20,514 nt of DNA, from the NCBI GenBank assembly GCA_018814505.1, contig JAHIZQ010000040.1, positions 1 to 20,514 on the forward strand, written 5' to 3'. A program made the position numbers and the translations under genes. The stretch comes from Candidatus Omnitrophota bacterium (lineage in GTDB: Bacteria > Omnitrophota > Gorgyraeia > Tantalellales > Tantalellaceae). This document shows positions 32 to 8,269 of this stretch, piece after piece. Position 1 is the first letter of the stretch. Every line of letters begins with the position of its first letter. The notes under the pieces were generated by a model. That model made no database searches and was not told the origin of the DNA. It saw only the letters and a program-made list of their open reading frames with translations.

Positions 32-3000
32 ATGCAGAAACAGAAAAAAAATAAAACCTACCAAGAGTATTATAATCAGTTAAATGATGAACAGAAAAAG
101 GTTGTTGATTTTGTTGACGGCCCAGTTTTGGTTCTAGCCGGACCTGGGACAGGAAAAACTCAACTTTTATCGGTGCGTGCCGCGAATATAATACAGCAAA
201 AGAAGTCTCTTGCGGAGAATATTCTTATATTAACATTTTCAAATGCCGCCGCAAATGCCATGCGGGAGCGCCTTGCGCTGATAATAGGACATTCGGGCTA
301 TGAAGTGGAAATAGAAACATTTCACAGTTTCGCGAATTCGATTGTTTTGGAATCAGAAGGAGCTCTAAAGTATTCCAGAGACCAGATTGAAATCGATGAA
401 ATCGAAAAAGTTCGGGCTATAGAATACATTTTGGATAATGTCTCAGGAGTCCAGCCGCTCAGGCCTTTTGGCGCGCCTTATTCATTTCGTTCGGAAATAG
501 AAAAACGAATAAGTGAACTAAAAAATGAAGCAATTATGCCCCATGAGTTTAAGGAGAATATAAAAAATTTAGAGCCTGATGGTGTGGATATAGAAGAAAA
601 ACATGTGGTACGATTAAACGCGCTTGCGCTTATTTATGAAAAATATGAACAATTAAAAAATGAAAATTGTGAACTCTTGTTTGACCAAAGGGGCAGGCGA
701 GACTATGACGATATGATATTAACGGCGTTAAACGCTTTTAGGCAGGACAAAACTCTCAGGAAATTTTTCCAGCGTCAGTATAAATACATAATGGTCGATG
801 AATTTCAGGATACAAATGGTACGCAACTTGAACTTTTGTTTAGCATACTGGATCCTGACACGAAAAACATTTGCTGTGTAGGGGATGATGACCAATCAAT
901 TTTTAGATTTCAGGGAGCTTCACTTTCAAATTTTAGAATTTTAAAAGAACGGTTGCCGCATCTTCAAACAATAGAGCTTTTTCGTAATTACCGTTCGGTT
1001 AATGATATTTTGAGTTTGGCCGATAGGATTATTAAACAGATTCCAGAGGATGAACGTCTTTCTTCAAAAAAACTTGTTGGGGCGAAAACGTATTCAAGTC
1101 AAAATGTTAAGCTTATGGAGTTTGCCACTTCGGAAGAGGAACTTAGTTTTCTTGTTGACGAGATAGAAAAGCAGGCTGACATTATACGAAGTGATGCGAT
1201 GCTCACAGACGAAGAAAGGCAAAAGCCGTATAATAATATTGCGGTTTTAGTGCGTAAAAGAGCGCAAATACTTAAGGTTATAGACGCATTTTTAAGAGCC
1301 GGTATCCCATACGCGACTGACGGGAAAGAAGATATCCGTCAGGAAAAACGTGTGCGTCAAATGTTGGACGTACTGGAGCTGGCTAATATTGATATCCGTG
1401 ATAATGAGAAAAAGTCGTTGACGCTGTATAAAATCCTTACCGCAGATTATCTTGAAGTTGATCTTTCAGATATCATGAAACTCGTTTCATATGTTAACGC
1501 TAAGAAGTATTCGAAAAACTCAAGAAGAGGCAAAGTCGGCGTGAATTTTTTTCAGGAATTTCATGCTAATTTTCCGGTAGAAAAAGATGAAGTGCCTTCA
1601 AAAGAGAATTCGAACGGTTTAGACATCGCGAGGGAATTAATGTTTAAAGATATAGGCGCTTTGCATAAAGCGGCCTGGGCGATAAATAGATTGCTTCAAG
1701 ACGCATCCAACAGGCCTGTGCATGATTTGTTATTGCAGTATATTGCGGACACACGGTTATACCGCTATATTTTGGATCGATATGAACAGGATAAAGTTCT
1801 TAAGATTCGGGATCTTAGGGCTTTGAGTTCGTTTATCAATAAGGTTAAAGAGTCAGATCTATCCAAACCTGCGTTAAATCTTCAAGCATTTATGGAAGAA
1901 CTTTCTATGAGAGAAGCGCATGGGATGCCACTTGAAGGGAATATTGCCACACAAAGCCAGAATGGGGTAAGATTGTATACCGCTCATTCATCAAAAGGGC
2001 TGGAATTTTATACGGTATTTGTGCCGTTCTGTCTTGGAAAGAAAAACTGGCCTGCAAGAACAAAAATTGAAATTATTCCCCTGCCACCTGATATATACAA
2101 AAGCAAAAAGAGAGTGGAAGATAAAAACACTAGAAAGCTATTAGCGCATTATGATGAAATTAGGCTTTTTTATGTGGCATCTACCAGAGCAAAGGCGTCT
2201 ATTTTTTATACAGCGGCCCCGGAAGGAAAAGTAATTATAACCCCATTTTTGAATCAGGTAGGGATTAATCACGAAACCGCGGTTATTGATGAAGAACAGT
2301 TTTTAATTAATTTTCTGGCTTCATCTAAAAAACGGGATCCGGTTGACTCTGCGGTAGCTGTTCTCTCGGATGTTATTAGTACGCTTGTTTTAAATCCTAC
2401 GAGCTTAAACAATTACGTTACATGCAGACGAAAGTTTTTGTATGATAATGTTCTTCGTCTTCCAGGCCGAAAAAATCAGCACCTGGTTTTTGGTAATTGC
2501 GCGCATAAAGCGTTGGAGGAAGTATACTTAAATTTTATGAAAACAGAAGTTTTTCCGGACTTTAATTTTTTCAAAGAAGCGTTTAAAAATGAACTAGAGT
2601 TTCAGGGCGCCAATAATCAGATCAAAAAGTGGTGTTTAGATAAAGTTGATGTTACGATAAGGGCGTGGTATGAGGGTGAGTCTCGTTTTCCGGTTATGCC
2701 TGTTGATCTCGAGAACAAACTGGAAATCGTGCTGACCGGGGGAATATTGTTTAAAGGTACCTTTGATAAAATAGAGTTGGAAACGGATGGTTCTATAAGG
2801 GTTGTGGATTATAAAACCGGGAAACCGGATAAGCATATAAAAGCTATCGCGAATTGTCATGAAGTTTCGGCAAAAGAATGTGATGATTATTTTAGGCAAC
2901 TTATTGCGTATAAAATGTTATATGAGCGGACTCGTCATGTAAATGATAAAAAAATAGTTTCAACAGGCGTGCTTAAGTTTTTAGAACCTGCGGGTGCGAC

Positions 3001-3199
3001 TGTTAAAAAATATAATTTGGAAAAAGGTATTTTTAGAGATGAAATTGTAAAACTTACGGATACAATGGTGCGTAACTTTGAAATTTTTATTGTCGAATGC
3101 TGGAAAGACATACAAGCTTTGAAGTTTGAACAGCTTAAGGAGCGGGATGATAAAGAAAAATGCGCGAGGTGTGAATATGACTCAATTTGCTGGGGATAG
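32..3199 (+). CDS. UvrD/PcrA-type helicase fused to Fe-S RecB/Cas4-like nuclease
   Basis: Predicted ATP-dependent 3'-5' DNA helicase with a C-terminal nuclease, acting in DNA repair or recombination. Visible helicase motifs are Walker A GPGTGKTQ (residues 37-44), Walker B DEFQDT (256-261), GDDDQSIFRFQGA (284-296), motif V around 647-660 and motif VI FYVASTRA (about 713-720). The last ~270 residues carry a PD-(D/E)XK nuclease: H825, D912, VDYKTG with D926 and K928, and the QxxxY motif at 956-960. Cys798 with C1044-x2-C1047-x5-C1053 matches the split four-cysteine 4Fe-4S pattern of AddB and Cas4. Helicase and nuclease in one 1055-residue chain resembles AddA/AddB parts merged. The ATG at 32 follows an in-frame TAA at 20-22, so the gene is complete at its 5' end; no clear Shine-Dalgarno is present. 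A YhaM-like gene follows 67 bases downstream. The family call is firm; the pathway is inferred. Confidence 0.93.
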   Translation: MQKQKKNKTYQEYYNQLNDEQKKVVDFVDGPVLVLAGPGTGKTQLLSVRAANIIQQKKSLAENILILTFSNAAANAMRERLALIIGHSGYEVEIETFHSFANSIVLESEGALKYSRDQIEIDEIEKVRAIEYILDNVSGVQPLRPFGAPYSFRSEIEKRISELKNEAIMPHEFKENIKNLEPDGVDIEEKHVVRLNALALIYEKYEQLKNENCELLFDQRGRRDYDDMILTALNAFRQDKTLRKFFQRQYKYIMVDEFQDTNGTQLELLFSILDPDTKNICCVGDDDQSIFRFQGASLSNFRILKERLPHLQTIELFRNYRSVNDILSLADRIIKQIPEDERLSSKKLVGAKTYSSQNVKLMEFATSEEELSFLVDEIEKQADIIRSDAMLTDEERQKPYNNIAVLVRKRAQILKVIDAFLRAGIPYATDGKEDIRQEKRVRQMLDVLELANIDIRDNEKKSLTLYKILTADYLEVDLSDIMKLVSYVNAKKYSKNSRRGKVGVNFFQEFHANFPVEKDEVPSKENSNGLDIARELMFKDIGALHKAAWAINRLLQDASNRPVHDLLLQYIADTRLYRYILDRYEQDKVLKIRDLRALSSFINKVKESDLSKPALNLQAFMEELSMREAHGMPLEGNIATQSQNGVRLYTAHSSKGLEFYTVFVPFCLGKKNWPARTKIEIIPLPPDIYKSKKRVEDKNTRKLLAHYDEIRLFYVASTRAKASIFYTAAPEGKVIITPFLNQVGINHETAVIDEEQFLINFLASSKKRDPVDSAVAVLSDVISTLVLNPTSLNNYVTCRRKFLYDNVLRLPGRKNQHLVFGNCAHKALEEVYLNFMKTEVFPDFNFFKEAFKNELEFQGANNQIKKWCLDKVDVTIRAWYEGESRFPVMPVDLENKLEIVLTGGILFKGTFDKIELETDGSIRVVDYKTGKPDKHIKAIANCHEVSAKECDDYFRQLIAYKMLYERTRHVNDKKIVSTGVLKFLEPAGATVKKYNLEKGIFRDEIVKLTDTMVRNFEIFIVECWKDIQALKFEQLKERDDKEKCARCEYDSICWG

Positions 3200-3266
3200 G
3201 GCGTGTTTTAGCAATTGTTGGTTTTGATTAGAATTTTTAGTGTGTTGTTTAGACGGGGAGGGTTCA

Positions 3267-4307
3267 GTGGATAAAAAATTTATTGCGGATTTTAAAGTTA
3301 ATGAACAGATTAATTCAGTTTTTATGCTTAGAAAAAAAAACCTGAAACTAACAAAGTATGATAAACCGTATCTTGAAATGACGCTTTCGGATAAAACCGG
3401 GAAAATAGAAGGCCGCTTATGGGACGATGCTGAAAAGTACTTTGAAGCATCAGATACGGGAGATTTTGTTCTCGTAAAGGGTACGGTTGATAAATACCGG
3501 GACGAAAAACAGTTAAAGATTGATTATTTGGTGAAGGCCGATGAAAGGGCTTTTCGTTATGAGGATATGGTACGAGTTGTAGAGAACAGGGATAAGTTTT
3601 ATAACGACATTTTGGTCTATTTAGAAAGCATTAAAAATGTATGGGTACAGTCTCTTTCGAAGTTATTTGTTGAAGATACAGAATTAATGTCTGCGTTTAA
3701 AGATGGAATCGGGGGAAAGAGCTGGCATAACGCGTACATAGGCGGGTTAATGGAACACACATTTGAGGTAATGTACATTTCGCAAAAAATGTGTATTTTG
3801 TGTGATGAAGCAGATAGGGATATAACGCTTTTTGGCGCGTTTATTCATGATATCGGAAAAGTGCGTGAACTGGATCCAAAAAAACTCGAATATACGGTTG
3901 AAGGTGGCCTTTTGGGGCATATTGCCATAGGATACAGGATTCTTACAGAAAAAATCAGTGAAATTAAAGATTTTCCATACGATTTACGGTTACGGTTGGA
4001 ACATATTATTCTCAGTCATCATGGAGAATACGAACAGCAATCGCCGGTTTTGCCTAAAACTCTTGAAGCCACAATTATATATCACGCGGATGAACTTGTG
4101 TCGCAAGCAAATGCCATAAAAGAAATACAGGTTGGCCAAAAAGAGGAAGGTAAAATATGGAGTAATTATGTTACAATCAAAAACAGGAAATACTTTATCA
4201 AGTCAGCAAAGGAAGAGGCCTGGAACAGTGCAAAAAGTGAGAATGAAAAAGTGAAGCGTCTTGAAAATCCTGATGAAGAATCGGATGAAATAGGTGATTT
4301 GTTTTAA
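3267..4307 (+). CDS. yhaM: YhaM-like 3'-5' exoribonuclease (OB-fold + HD domain)
   Basis: The protein has an N-terminal OB-fold nucleic-acid-binding region (about residues 10-90, with the TGKIEGRLW stretch) followed by an HD-superfamily metal-dependent phosphohydrolase domain. This is the architecture of YhaM, a 3'-5' exonuclease that trims RNA and some DNA. Metal-site residues visible are H154, H164, the doublet H194-D195 in FIHDIGK, H218, H251-H252 in SHHGEYE and D275. I chose the GTG at 3267 because GGGGAGGG (3255-3262) lies 4 bases before it. An upstream in-frame GTG at 3240 has no ribosome binding site and would add nine unconserved-looking residues. It gives 346 residues, slightly longer than Bacillus YhaM, because of a charged C-terminal tail. 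It is probably cotranscribed with the helicase upstream and the metallopeptidase 26 bases downstream. Confidence 0.88.
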   Translation: MDKKFIADFKVNEQINSVFMLRKKNLKLTKYDKPYLEMTLSDKTGKIEGRLWDDAEKYFEASDTGDFVLVKGTVDKYRDEKQLKIDYLVKADERAFRYEDMVRVVENRDKFYNDILVYLESIKNVWVQSLSKLFVEDTELMSAFKDGIGGKSWHNAYIGGLMEHTFEVMYISQKMCILCDEADRDITLFGAFIHDIGKVRELDPKKLEYTVEGGLLGHIAIGYRILTEKISEIKDFPYDLRLRLEHIILSHHGEYEQQSPVLPKTLEATIIYHADELVSQANAIKEIQVGQKEEGKIWSNYVTIKNRKYFIKSAKEEAWNSAKSENEKVKRLENPDEESDEIGDLF

Positions 4308-4333
4308 TAATTTATTTTTGATCGAAATAAAAA

Positions 4334-4702
4334 ATGAACCGTAAAAAATTTGAAAAACTGGTTATAGAGACACTCGAAGCATTGCCGAGAGTTTTTAAAA
4401 ATAGTTTAAAAAATATTGATGTTGTTATTGAAGATGAACCGTCTGCTGGCCAGGAAGATAAACTTGACGCTTCACACTGTAAAGTTGTTTTGGGATTGTA
4501 TCAAGGCGTTCCATTGTCACGACGGAGTCATTGTTACGGCATGGTGATGCCTGATAAGGTGTATATTTTTCAGAAAAATATTGAAAAAGTCTGTGGTTCT
4601 GATGAAGAAATAACGCGACTAGTGAGGCGTACCGTTCAGCACGAACTAGCTCATCATTTTGGAATTTCTGACCAAAGGATGAGAGATCTTGACGTTTACT
4701 AA
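4334..4702 (+). CDS. Small zincin-like metallopeptidase (PF06262/DUF1025-type)
   Basis: This 122-residue protein ends with the zinc-peptidase signature HELAH (residues 103-107), followed by HFGISDQRMRDLD, which fits the minimal zincin family PF06262 (MMP1-like). His103 and His107 would bind zinc, Glu104 would act as general base, and a downstream Asp (113, 118 or 120) is the candidate third ligand. The length is normal for the family, which consists of single-domain cytosolic proteins of unknown physiological substrate. There is no signal peptide or membrane segment. It starts 26 bases after the YhaM-like gene, so it is likely the last gene of that operon; no convincing Shine-Dalgarno is visible. 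It converges on the - strand membrane protein gene, with only 46 bases between the stop codons and no clear hairpin there. Confidence 0.82.
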   Translation: MNRKKFEKLVIETLEALPRVFKNSLKNIDVVIEDEPSAGQEDKLDASHCKVVLGLYQGVPLSRRSHCYGMVMPDKVYIFQKNIEKVCGSDEEITRLVRRTVQHELAHHFGISDQRMRDLDVY

Positions 4703-4748: not shown

Positions 4749-5768
4749 TTAGTTTTTGTTGACTCGGATATTATCAATGCAGATGTGTCCATTGTAAAGG
4801 GTGTTATACGATTCTATTCGCAATGCAAGTTTGCGTATGTCGGATTTAATCGTATTATTGATTTTTACTTGGTTCCAGTCTTTGCTTTGTTCTGTTAAGT
4901 CGGCTTTAATAGTAACCCATTTGCCAGGTGACAATCTTACGGTGTGGTTCATTTCAATAAAGTCCCAATTTTCTCCGGCACTTAATATAAGCTTGCCGCG
5001 AATTTCTGTTTCAGGTGCTTCAAGAGGCAAGTATACATCGGCTGAGATCGAATCGTAATTTGAAAGGTCAAGGTACTGTTGAATTTCAACCAGGGCGGCC
5101 GTCCATGTTCGTCCGGGAAATTCTACAAAAAGTTCAAGGCAACCTTTGCCATGACTTGAAATGTAATCAATTTTATCAATGAACCGTGCTACATGATCCT
5201 GCTTATCGAGTTCCCAGGAAGGTATTTCCCATCCGCTTAAATCATTTTCAAAGCTGTAAAGAGTTTTGTTCTCTGGGAGTGAAATGCTTGTTTTGCTAAG
5301 TAGAACTGGAAGCTCTTTGCCTGGGTCTGCCTCAGGACTGAGTATAGTTGAAGTAGTCGTAGTATTTTCGCCATGTTCTGCATTTGGCAGTTTATTGTTA
5401 TCAAAACCCGTCGTAATATCATTTTCCCATGTTTCTGGAGCAAGAGGGCTTTTCCGCACAGGCTCGATACTAACATGTACGTTGAAAATAACACGTTTTT
5501 GTTGGAAAAACCATACCGTGGGAATGACTAAACCCGCAATAAGTATCAACGCGATGATCCAGCGTGTGAACCGTGCGGATGTTGTATGATTTCTTTTTGT
5601 GGGCGCGTTTTTTACGTTGTTTCTTTTCGCAATTTTTTTAAAATGATTTTGTTGAAGCAATTTGCGGATGTCGTCTGGCTGTTCTTTTTTCTCATTCAGC
5701 GTATTATTCCGAAAATAAGTTTTTGATAACTCAAAATCAATTTTGTCCGGCGTTTTTGTCCCTTGCAT
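4749..5768 (-). CDS. Single-pass membrane protein with beta-sandwich/CBM-like C-terminal domain
   Basis: I do not recognise a named family. Starting at the ATG at 5768 gives 339 residues; a TTG at 5804 would add 12 more, but neither has a good ribosome binding site. Residues 1-66 are polar and basic (predicted cytoplasmic). A hydrophobic segment at about 70-88 (IIALILIAGLVIPTVWFF) is a single transmembrane helix, and the rest should be outside the inner membrane. A Thr/Pro/Glu-rich linker (about 105-170) leads to a C-terminal domain (about 175-339). That domain begins LYSFENDLSGW and ends with HICIDNIRV, with alternating strand-like stretches and conserved-looking tryptophans. This is typical of galactose-binding-like/CBM beta-sandwich modules attached to glycan-active proteins. 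The gene is divergent from the ParA-CBM48 gene, and a shared carbohydrate theme is inferred from that. Confidence 0.72.
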   Translation of the reverse strand: MQGTKTPDKIDFELSKTYFRNNTLNEKKEQPDDIRKLLQQNHFKKIAKRNNVKNAPTKRNHTTSARFTRWIIALILIAGLVIPTVWFFQQKRVIFNVHVSIEPVRKSPLAPETWENDITTGFDNNKLPNAEHGENTTTTSTILSPEADPGKELPVLLSKTSISLPENKTLYSFENDLSGWEIPSWELDKQDHVARFIDKIDYISSHGKGCLELFVEFPGRTWTAALVEIQQYLDLSNYDSISADVYLPLEAPETEIRGKLILSAGENWDFIEMNHTVRLSPGKWVTIKADLTEQSKDWNQVKINNTIKSDIRKLALRIESYNTLYNGHICIDNIRVNKN

Positions 5769-5994: not shown

Positions 5995-7038
5995 ATGAAA
6001 GTTATTTCAATCGCGAATCAAAAAGGCGGTTGTGGCAAAACTACGCTGGCGGTGAATATCGCGGCGACGCTTTCTAATTTAGGCAATGAAACTCTTCTAA
6101 TCGATCTTGACCCGCAGGCTCACGCTACTTTTGCCTTAGGTCTTTCGGGGAAATCCTCGGAGCATAAAACTTCATATGACATATTCAGATCCCGTTTTAA
6201 TAAAGCAGATATTGATTTTGACGGATTAGTTATAAGTGATCGTGAAAAACTTTCATTTATTCCCGCGAACATGATGCTTAGCGCGGCTGAAATTAATCTA
6301 GGAGGCATTGACGGGGCCGCGGCAATATTGTCACAGACTTTAGCGCATCCGTATTTTGAAAAATATGCGTATGTTGTAATTGATTCACCGCCGAGTTTCG
6401 GATTTCTGACTTTAAATTCTATGTACGCGGCTGATGTTATACTAGTTCCGATGGATTTGAGTTATTTTGCTTTTAACGGTATTAATGGTGTTTATCGTGT
6501 GGCCAGTTTGTTGAATAGAGAAACTGGGCGTAGTCCTTCAATTTTTTTCGCAATGAATTTATTCGACAGCCGATCGAATTTTGCCAGGAAAATAGAAAAA
6601 GACGCGCGATCAAAATTGGGAGAATATCTTTTATCAACAAAAATACGTTCCAGTGTTCGTTTAAGAGAAGCCGCGAGCGAGGGGAAAACTATATTTGAAT
6701 ACGCGGATGAATCGCCATCCGCGTCAGATTTTATTAATCTTACATGTGAGATTTTAGTTGCCGAGAGCAAAAAAACTAATGCCATCATGAAAGAGTTTAT
6801 GCTTCACGCACCAGAAGCGGGTGCGGTTTATGTTCTTGGCGATTTTAATAATTGGCAGAAAACCGAAGCTAACAGGCTTACGAAACTTGAGAATGGACAT
6901 TGGTCGGGACATGTTACTTTACGGCGGGGAAAATATCGTTATAAATTTTTGGTAGATGACGAATGGATTCATGACCCAGAAAATCGTAAAGTTAGCGCAA
7001 ATGGATATGGTACGCATGATTCGATTGTTAAAGTGTGA
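5995..7038 (+). CDS. ParA/Soj-type ATPase fused to C-terminal CBM48/AMPK-beta-like glycogen-binding domain
   Basis: Residues 1 to about 260 are a ParA/MinD-superfamily ATPase: deviant Walker A KGGCGKTT (10-17), DLDPQ (about 37-41) and the Walker A'/B stretch VIDSPPSFG (128-136). Such proteins dimerise with ATP and position DNA, or cargo such as carboxysomes, over the nucleoid. Residues about 267-345 form a separate E-set domain like CBM48/AMPK-beta glycogen-binding modules. Its marks are VYVLGDFNNW (W287), a second aromatic W303, and YKFLVDDEWIHDPEN. The ATG at 5995 is chosen because AGGAGGAG ends a few bases upstream; an in-frame ATT 36 bases earlier has no such site. The gene ends in a strong terminator, so it is probably monocistronic. 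No ParB or parS-like gene is adjacent. The domains are clear; a role in placing glycogen-like cargo is only a hypothesis. Confidence 0.88.
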   Translation: MKVISIANQKGGCGKTTLAVNIAATLSNLGNETLLIDLDPQAHATFALGLSGKSSEHKTSYDIFRSRFNKADIDFDGLVISDREKLSFIPANMMLSAAEINLGGIDGAAAILSQTLAHPYFEKYAYVVIDSPPSFGFLTLNSMYAADVILVPMDLSYFAFNGINGVYRVASLLNRETGRSPSIFFAMNLFDSRSNFARKIEKDARSKLGEYLLSTKIRSSVRLREAASEGKTIFEYADESPSASDFINLTCEILVAESKKTNAIMKEFMLHAPEAGAVYVLGDFNNWQKTEANRLTKLENGHWSGHVTLRRGKYRYKFLVDDEWIHDPENRKVSANGYGTHDSIVKV

Positions 7039-7075: not shown

Positions 7076-7110
7076 AAAAGGGTTCCGGGTTGTTGACTGA
7101 ACCTTTTTTT
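7076..7110 (+). terminator. Intrinsic terminator after the ParA-CBM48 gene
   Basis: The left arm AAAAGGGTTC (7076-7085) pairs with GAACC (7099-7103) and the start of a seven-T run (7104-7110), with one G-U pair. It sits 38 bases after the stop codon and separates this gene from the GH130 gene. Confidence 0.75.
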
Positions 7111-7321: not shown

Positions 7322-8269
7322 ATGTCACAACCTATAATTTATCCAAAAACCAAAGAAAATATTGTTGTTCGGTATGAAGGCAATCCAATTTTAACAAAGG
7401 ATGATGTTCCAGTCGCGGCAAAAGGAGTTTATAATTCCGGATGTATAAAAACCGCGGAGGGGCAGTATGTCATGCTTTGCAGAGTTGAAACTCCGTCCAT
7501 GAAACAAATGATTTGGCCCGCAGATTCTGTTCAAGGCATAAAGTTTAAATTGCGCCCTGAACCTATAAAAATGCCGGATACAGATGAATTTAAAGAATAT
7601 ACGACTGGGATGTACTATGATCCGCGTGTTACTCAGATTGATGGGATTTATTATGTTGTGTTTGCATGTCATAGTGGGCATTCGTGCAGATTAGGGCTTC
7701 TGGAATCACCTGATATGAAAGAGTTTAAATGGCGGGGGTTTATTTCTGAAACTGATAATCGTAATGGGGTTCTTTTTCCTGAAAAAATAAATGGGTTATA
7801 TTGCCGTTTAGACAGGCCTAATACCGGTGATGGGAAAGGGTATATGTGGCTTTCGTATTCGCCTGATCTTATTCATTGGGGGCAGTCAAAAGCAGTAGCG
7901 TTTTCTCAGGACGAATGGGGTTGGAAGAAAAATGGTCCGGGAGCGGTACCTATAAGAACAGAAAAAGGATGGCTTGTTATTTACCATGCGGTTAATGTTC
8001 AGTGCGCGGCGCAGTATGTGTATCATCTGGGAGTTATGTTGTTGGATATTCACGATCCTTCAAAGATTGTTGCGCGCGCAAAAGCTCCGATACTTTCACC
8101 GACTACGGATTATGAACTTAGTGGATTAACATATGCAGTTGTTTTTACGTGCGGCGCGATAGTAGAATCTGACGGTGAAGTGAAAATATATTACGGTGGC
8201 GCGGATACTGTACAATGCTTGGCAACAGCGAGGATTGAAGATCTGGTAGACGCTTGTTTTAATAGGTGA
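7322..8269 (+). CDS. GH130 family glycoside phosphorylase/hydrolase
   Basis: A 315-residue five-bladed beta-propeller enzyme of glycoside hydrolase family 130. Most members phosphorolyse beta-1,4- or beta-1,2-mannosides, producing mannose 1-phosphate without using ATP. Supporting stretches are YEGNPILTKDDVP (18-30), YNSGCIKTAEGQYVMLCRVE (37-56), YDPRVTQIDGIYYV (99-112; D100 is the candidate proton-donor Asp), DRPNTGDGKGYMWLSYSPDL (164-183) and NGPGAVPIRTEKGWLVIYHA (204-223). The length is typical and no signal peptide is seen, so it is cytoplasmic. The start ATG follows AAAGGGA about 8 bases upstream. It has its own promoter, and the RF-like gene follows after 75 bases. Exact linkage specificity cannot be read from the sequence; no mannan transporter or mannosidase lies nearby. 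Confidence 0.88.
   Translation: MSQPIIYPKTKENIVVRYEGNPILTKDDVPVAAKGVYNSGCIKTAEGQYVMLCRVETPSMKQMIWPADSVQGIKFKLRPEPIKMPDTDEFKEYTTGMYYDPRVTQIDGIYYVVFACHSGHSCRLGLLESPDMKEFKWRGFISETDNRNGVLFPEKINGLYCRLDRPNTGDGKGYMWLSYSPDLIHWGQSKAVAFSQDEWGWKKNGPGAVPIRTEKGWLVIYHAVNVQCAAQYVYHLGVMLLDIHDPSKIVARAKAPILSPTTDYELSGLTYAVVFTCGAIVESDGEVKIYYGGADTVQCLATARIEDLVDACFNR

Follow-up and report, generated by a model that had tools for sequence, protein, structure and literature searches.

ATPases of the ParA/MinD type place DNA, carboxysomes, flagella and receptor arrays (PMC13170346, available part). In McdAB, a ParA-type ATPase and a separate activator serve a cytoplasmic body, and the activator sits on the cargo; AlgP and PhaF place storage granules on the nucleoid, and the histone-like AlgP spaces polyphosphate granules (PMC13052382, available part). 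This 2025 review of bacterial organelle placement does not use the word 'glycogen' anywhere in its main text. Here we describe a gene in the first 20,514 nucleotides of contig JAHIZQ010000040.1 from a Candidatus Omnitrophota bacterium (assembly GCA_018814505.1; this whole stretch is the window) that encodes a ParA ATPase fused to a glycogen-binding domain of the AMPK beta type. Together with a candidate sugar-binding membrane partner, the fusion points to active placement or sensing of stored sugar in some bacteria. A literature search, with subscription papers and preprints outside its reach, found among the matches listed no description of a protein combining ParA with a glycogen-binding domain, and among the matches listed on glycogen granule localisation no title or abstract start had ParA for glycogen as its topic. 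'ParA' as a whole word is absent from one Omnitrophota paper (PMC10066038) and from the available part of another (PMC8542988). Nor do 'ParA', 'partition' or 'AMPK' occur in the portion covered of a review from 2024 on the alpha-glucan enzymes of prokaryotes (PMC11046441).

The fusion gene (5995..7038, forward strand) encodes 347 amino acids from ATG to TGA, in a frame open throughout and preceded by AGGAGGAG. Pfam places AAA_31 at residues 1–176 (E 2.4e-42) and CbiA at 4–233 (E 2.4e-18), followed by CBM_48 at 267–330 (E 8.1e-8; 32.9 bits against a cut-off of 22.4) and AMPK1_CBM (PF16561) at 275–346 (E 6.7e-13; 49.1 bits against 26.8). An AlphaFold2 model has two well-formed domains (mean pLDDT 93.2, pTM 0.85). 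A sequence-only reading of this DNA had proposed a complete ParA ATPase followed in frame by a carbohydrate-binding domain of the CBM48 type, and both the profile matches and the predicted structure bear this out. The ATPase domain spans residues 1 to about 255 (5995..6759), with the Walker A motif NQKGGCGKTT at 6016–6045; Pfam, sequence search and the model together put the sugar-binding domain at residues of about 266 to 347 (6790..7035).

Conservation was assessed on 109 aligned fusions, some of which are the same contig in two collections and hence not independent. They come from 111 loci gathered by protein match, the other two being a weak match only (L002) and a fusion cut by a contig end (L017). 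The ATPase half is of the Soj type with intact catalytic residues, and in both fold and catalytic residues it resembles the ATPase of ParABS. Its best structure matches are Soj/ParA proteins, with FleN and BcsQ also among the fold matches (VIA-align). All 109 sequences have the deviant Walker A motif with its signature lysine (KGGCGKT), and K10, C13, K15, D37, D39, D130 and R193 are invariant, so that the catalytic aspartates of Motif 2 and Walker B (D37, D39, D130) are kept throughout. The Motif 2 asparagine position, N64 in Myxococcus xanthus ParA, is H43 in 108 of 109. Non-specific DNA binding by this half is putative. Of the basic residues concerned, R193 is invariant, and R238, which binds DNA in M. 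xanthus ParA, aligns with R222, where only 80 of the 109 have lysine or arginine.

The sugar-binding half is the feature that ParABS lacks. Searched alone, the C-terminal 88 residues have the glycogen-binding domains of AMPK beta1 and beta2 as their best solved relatives (E 2.9e-9). Because the VIA-align rows for the fusion model end at residue 299 or before, the fold of this domain rests on sequence profiles and the model. W287 (6853..6855) aligns with the FNNW tryptophan of AMPK beta, W324 (6964..6966) with its second tryptophan and K317 with its lysine. We take W287 and W324 to correspond to W100 and W133 of AMPK beta, and the counterparts of W287, K317 and W324 presumably are glucan-contact residues. 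Both tryptophans are invariant in 109/109, the outcome of a check on glucan-contacting aromatics that the sequence-only reading had proposed. W303 is kept in 108/109; at residue 317, 60 sequences have K, 37 have R and 12 have Q; and residue 338 is F or Y in 98/109. Alpha-glucan binding by the C-terminal domain is a putative function. As in AMPK beta, the domain belongs to the same glycogen-binding family and keeps the contact tryptophans; unlike in AMPK beta, it is attached to a ParA ATPase, outside any kinase complex.

These two halves admit a reading in which the ATPase places a complex for glycan export, import or surface display, much as the MinD/ParA-like BcsQ acts in cellulose synthesis, and the sugar domain is a protein-binding module or binds the precursor of an exported glycan. 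The shared ATPase fold and polysaccharide context recall BcsQ. However, the fusion scores 72.1 bits with the BcsQ model TIGR03371 of NCBIfam, below the cut-off of 157.85; glucan-contact tryptophans would not need to be invariant across phyla; and no carbohydrate-binding domain was found in ten partners scanned from other loci. We know of no sugar-binding domain in BcsQ. We consider this explanation distinctly unlikely.

ATPase and sugar domain lie in one frame in 36 of 59 genomes of relatives (source genome included, counted from a table), one of which, G016, has the fusion split over two contigs. Within the family of the source genome, 16 of 19 genomes have it, and none was seen in G006, G011 or G015. 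More full-length fusions were among the matches listed from 193 genomes of the phylum. A wider genome scan gave at least 576 confirmed relatives, the best 80 of which, a set biased to good matches, are all full-length fusions. Among these 80, record titles are mostly Candidatus Omnitrophota; other titled groups are Desulfobacterota and other deltaproteobacteria, Planctomycetota, Eisenbacteria, Krumholzibacteriota, Latescibacterota, Zixibacteria and Rokubacteria. L100, titled as an archaeon, and L055, titled as a Planctomycetales bacterium with Omnitrophota-type neighbours, may both be misbinned. An architecture conserved in so many genomes is neither a chance fusion nor the assembly error that the sequence-only reading had raised as a concern. 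A plasmid origin was also rejected on the eight best plasmid matches, which end by residue 270, without the sugar domain; of the 5000 counted records, 22 cover at least 80% of the query.

The fusion could instead be an ordinary chromosome or plasmid partition ParA that acquired a functionless domain by accident. Its ATPase part is typical of Soj, and with the fusion protein as query no second full ParA was found in the source genome (87.8% complete), where the fusion is single-copy and the only other match covers 42 residues (E 5.6e-4). The spread of the fusion over 36 of 59 relatives and over records titled with several phyla nevertheless disfavours an accident, as does the lack of a ParB domain in the partners scanned. 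When 27 fusions were placed in a tree with 16 other ParAs of their class, of which 12 are from fusion-bearing genomes and four from genomes without it, the fusions all fell on one side of a branch with support 100/100, which rules out the fusion as the lineage's ordinary ParA and leaves the accidental addition highly improbable. The KGGCGKT of fusions reads KGG[VT]GKT or KGGVAKT in other ParAs of the class. Ordinary ParAs of the source family have KGGVAKT and not KGGVGKT as Walker A in 10/10 sampled (L160–L163, L165–L168, L173, L174).

The gene divergent from the fusion (4749..5768, reverse strand) encodes a single-pass membrane protein of 339 amino acids that is likely its functional partner. 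A cytoplasmic tail carries the motif IDFELSKTYF at residues 10–19 (5712..5741, reverse strand), followed by a transmembrane helix at residues 63–90 (5499..5582, reverse strand) and an outer beta-sandwich domain at residues 197–338 (4755..5180, reverse strand). The outer domain is assigned to CBM27, a mannan-binding type, by both profile and fold, and six of its tryptophans are kept in at least 12 of 13 family members; mannan binding is a putative function. In the same 13 members, I10, D11, E13, Y18 and F19 are identical and position 16 is always K or R, and none of columns 20–172 reaches 90% conservation, which leaves the tail motif isolated. The tail is weakly modelled, with a low-confidence helix at residues 7–19. 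A scan for the motif gave 12 matches, two of which (both in G003, in frames of 58 and 12 residues) were counted as chance. In the locus map, a membrane protein belonging to one of four clusters adjoins the fusion in 48 of 80 loci, and the membrane proteins of the loci are predicted inside-positive in 52 of 56, with four ties.

The partner gene is divergent in the source family and co-directional elsewhere. In other phyla, the gene just downstream of the fusion usually encodes a soluble protein, with domains unrelated between loci: ParA-like, some degenerate (L058, L081, L086), AAA (L077) or lacking any Pfam match (L056, L066, L070). Two have a helix-turn-helix-like match (HTH_17, below the Pfam cut-off, in L087 and L089), and the motif-bearing partner at L087:1614-2969 also matches RodZ_C above the cut-off. 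Such soluble partners open with N-terminal motifs, e.g. KSLGRGLEDISQIFLS. We wrote two motif patterns from these sequences and took expected counts from the remainder of the same loci. Within 1 kb of the fusion, the LxxISxxFLS-like pattern has 20 matches (one of them, in L048, in a membrane segment) where 0.96 are expected, and the other pattern has 51 where 2.31 are expected. Five matches that lie in membrane segments or other genes were dropped by hand: four of pattern 1 (the second matches of L072, L044 and L048, and the match of L042) and the pattern 2 match of L048. After this, 66 of 92 loci have a short N-terminal motif in the gene next to the fusion. The sequence-only reading had suggested a one-protein system with no adjacent ParB partner. 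The first suggestion is probably wrong given this adjacent gene; as for the second, no ParB family match was found in the window partner or in partners scanned from other loci, but the adjacent gene is likely a functional partner and has a conserved tail motif. At L097:9074-11014, one reading frame covers both a motif-bearing protein and an NrfD membrane protein.

The motifs of soluble partners in other phyla resemble the peptide with which ParB activates ParA. In M. xanthus, the ParB motif comprises L11, R13, L15, L18 and I19, is modelled as a helix on a ParA pocket that includes V116, L150, L152 and L155, and has been tested by mutation (PMC12462528, available part). LGRGLEDI of soluble partners fits ParB L11 to L18, and the LGRGLxDI form fits at L11, R13, L15 and L18. 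The Omnitrophota locus L157 has LGKGLEDISYLFLS, a form otherwise of other phyla and L058. The window partner has a different hydrophobic motif from the LGRGLxDI-like form found in several phyla. On the ATPase side, the four pocket residues align with I100, F135, F137 and L140 of the fusion, all hydrophobic and fixed in 15/15 of the source family; the V116 counterpart is Q in most fusions outside it. The fusion system is like ParABS in having partners with an N-terminal motif, here a putative ParA-binding one, and unlike it in that the partner has no ParB domain match and, in the window, is a membrane protein. McdAB also pairs a ParA-type ATPase with a separate activator, but here the ATPase itself would carry the cargo-binding domain and the likely activator would be in the envelope.

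We propose a ParA-type switch that places or senses cytoplasmic glycogen and is worked by an envelope-anchored activator, the reading that we think most likely, at about even odds. The ATPase would dimerise with ATP and then probably hold DNA, and the AMPK-beta-type domain on each subunit would bind glycogen. Since each subunit carries such a domain, the dimer could link glycogen to the nucleoid or to the partner. The short cytoplasmic N-terminal motif of the partner would dock on the ATPase dimer and stimulate hydrolysis, as the ParB N-terminal peptide does, with the CBM27-like outer domain in the periplasm. The ATPase cycle would spread glycogen or keep it in place, and might be coupled to the ligand of the outer domain. 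If this is correct, glycogen has ParA-type machinery of its own, a ParA binds its cargo directly, and the glycogen-binding domain of AMPK has a bacterial use. The proposal is testable outside the uncultured Omnitrophota, since records from Desulfobacterota and other phyla carry the fusion too.

Between placement and sensing of glycogen we favour placement, since the nearest matches of the ATPase are Soj/ParA proteins and a gene cluster with lysine-rich, histone-like members is found downstream of the fusion in 34 of 80 loci. The members read (L055, L084, L152, L156, L159) have a lysine/arginine-rich, histone-H1-like tail and a weak EF-Tu domain-2-like part (L084:4843-5355, E 0.072). The cluster recalls AlgP and PhaF; its lysine-rich gene is absent from the window. 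To our knowledge, neither AlgP nor PhaF has an ATPase. Alternatively, the protein may be a glycogen sensor that moves no granule. Its sugar domain would then sense glucan status, as that of AMPK does, and change the state of the ATPase, which in turn would control the partner: a membrane protein in the window and, in some Desulfobacterota, a helix-turn-helix protein. The AMPK beta domains as closest solved relatives, the two sub-cut-off helix-turn-helix matches at L087 and L089 and the fold match to FleN, a regulatory member of the ParA family, are consistent with sensing. The Soj/ParA proteins as best fold matches, and the likeness of the lysine-rich cluster to the granule-spacing AlgP (PMC13052382, available part), count against it, and we regard a pure sensor as possible but doubtful.

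Some link to outside glycans is suggested by the mannan-type outer domain and by a GH130 gene kept beside the fusion in 12 of 14 source-family loci. In its fullest form, the proposal becomes an inverted ParA system: the ATPase carries the glycogen-binding domain, the activating peptide is tethered to the inner membrane on a reader of outside glycans, and partners are exchangeable elsewhere. We hold this extended version to be rather unlikely. Under it, a periplasmic mannan-type glycan would decide at which place in the cell glycogen is held, or whether it is held at all, sugar supply and storage would be linked across the envelope, and the partners of other phyla would have only the short N-terminal tail motif in common.

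Genes for glycogen metabolism are present in the source genome and near a minority of fusions. Contig C11 encodes a 1029-residue GH57–glycogen synthase fusion (L180:5578-8667), a 4-alpha-glucanotransferase and a DUF4912 domain fused to a GH57 branching enzyme (L180:1062-3317); a full-length phosphorylase is on contig C133. Glycogen synthesis has been reported for Omnitrophota genome bins (PMC8542988, available part). With eight query proteins, an alpha-glucan enzyme was found in the flanks, which are of limited length, of 20 of 94 fusion loci (two contigs counted twice). Among these 20, a GH57 gene lies about 2 kb upstream in 16 and a GH57 fragment in L111; the flanks of L034 have MalQ, GH57 and phosphorylase, and those of L087 and L100 have GlgB. 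When seven GH57 sequences were compared, 17 flank GH57 proteins were nearest the GH57 part of the source genome's glycogen synthase (37–42% identity for 16, 22% for one). G033, in which no fusion was seen, has a stand-alone 94-residue AMPK1_CBM gene (L176:6420-6704, contig C50), 45% identical to the domain of the fusion, in a cluster with genes for GH57, branching enzyme and glycogen synthase. A histidine kinase and a response regulator lie between the enzyme genes of that cluster.

Several results weigh against a glycogen switch with an envelope-anchored activator. The eight-query search found no alpha-glucan gene in the locus flanks beside the fusion in the source's own family, where the neighbour is the GH130 gene and the CBM27-like outer domain of the partner is of mannan type. 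Among fusion-bearing genomes, no GT5 match was found in G051, and those in G001 are all weak (best E 2.5e-12). Because GT5 is nearly universal in the class (56 of 59 genomes, missing in G030 and G031, both without the fusion, and in G051), its co-occurrence with the fusion says little and was discarded as evidence. As for the partner, 25 of 92 loci match neither motif pattern, some being visibly variant and some cut by contig ends, and in L034, L036, L037 and L040 no such motif was seen in the adjacent frames read. The patterns were written after most loci had been seen, so the enrichment is partly circular. Less circular support comes from the partners of L090, L092 and L101, hidden by longer frames, which first surfaced in the pattern scan. 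Among 17 loci gathered later, the patterns match a real partner in six (L146, L152, L153, L157, L158 and L159, the last two repeating contigs already seen). Variant motifs were recognised by eye in L143, L148, L149, L150, L154, L155 and L156; the partner region of L145 has no motif, L147 repeats L042, and no fusion frame was obtained from L144 or L151. When trained on the membrane partners, a score matrix recovers 2 of 36 other partners with a score of at least 6 bits, compared with 7 of 879 in the background. A single matrix for both motif classes thus failed to transfer, and the membrane and soluble motifs may be two analogous motifs instead of a single one. In the fusion, the patch facing ParB R13 is partly kept at most: the printed alignment pairs Y81 with F64, and with the gap shifted to the family's IY the patch reads Y61 and D62, with M94 and N101 replacing the acidic D110 and E117.

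The GH130 gene, beta-mannoside phosphorylase-like and a candidate member only, is the downstream neighbour of the fusion (7322..8269, forward strand) and reaches the cut-off of none of the NCBIfam mannoside models that it matches. A shared transcript of the two genes is unsupported: the 283-base gap between them contains, as read by eye, a GGTTC/GAACC stem with a T run (7081–7110). The loop of this stem is too long for the terminator scan; promoter-like and terminator-like sites found by scan are about as frequent as in shuffled sequence (11 versus 10.9 and 4 versus 3.3). At the start of the window (32–4702, forward strand) are genes for a UvrD-like helicase with a PD-(D/E)XK nuclease domain, a YhaM-like HD-domain protein and a zincin-like protein, in this order. 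Of the 14 source-family loci mapped, 11 have retained the YhaM-like HD-domain gene.
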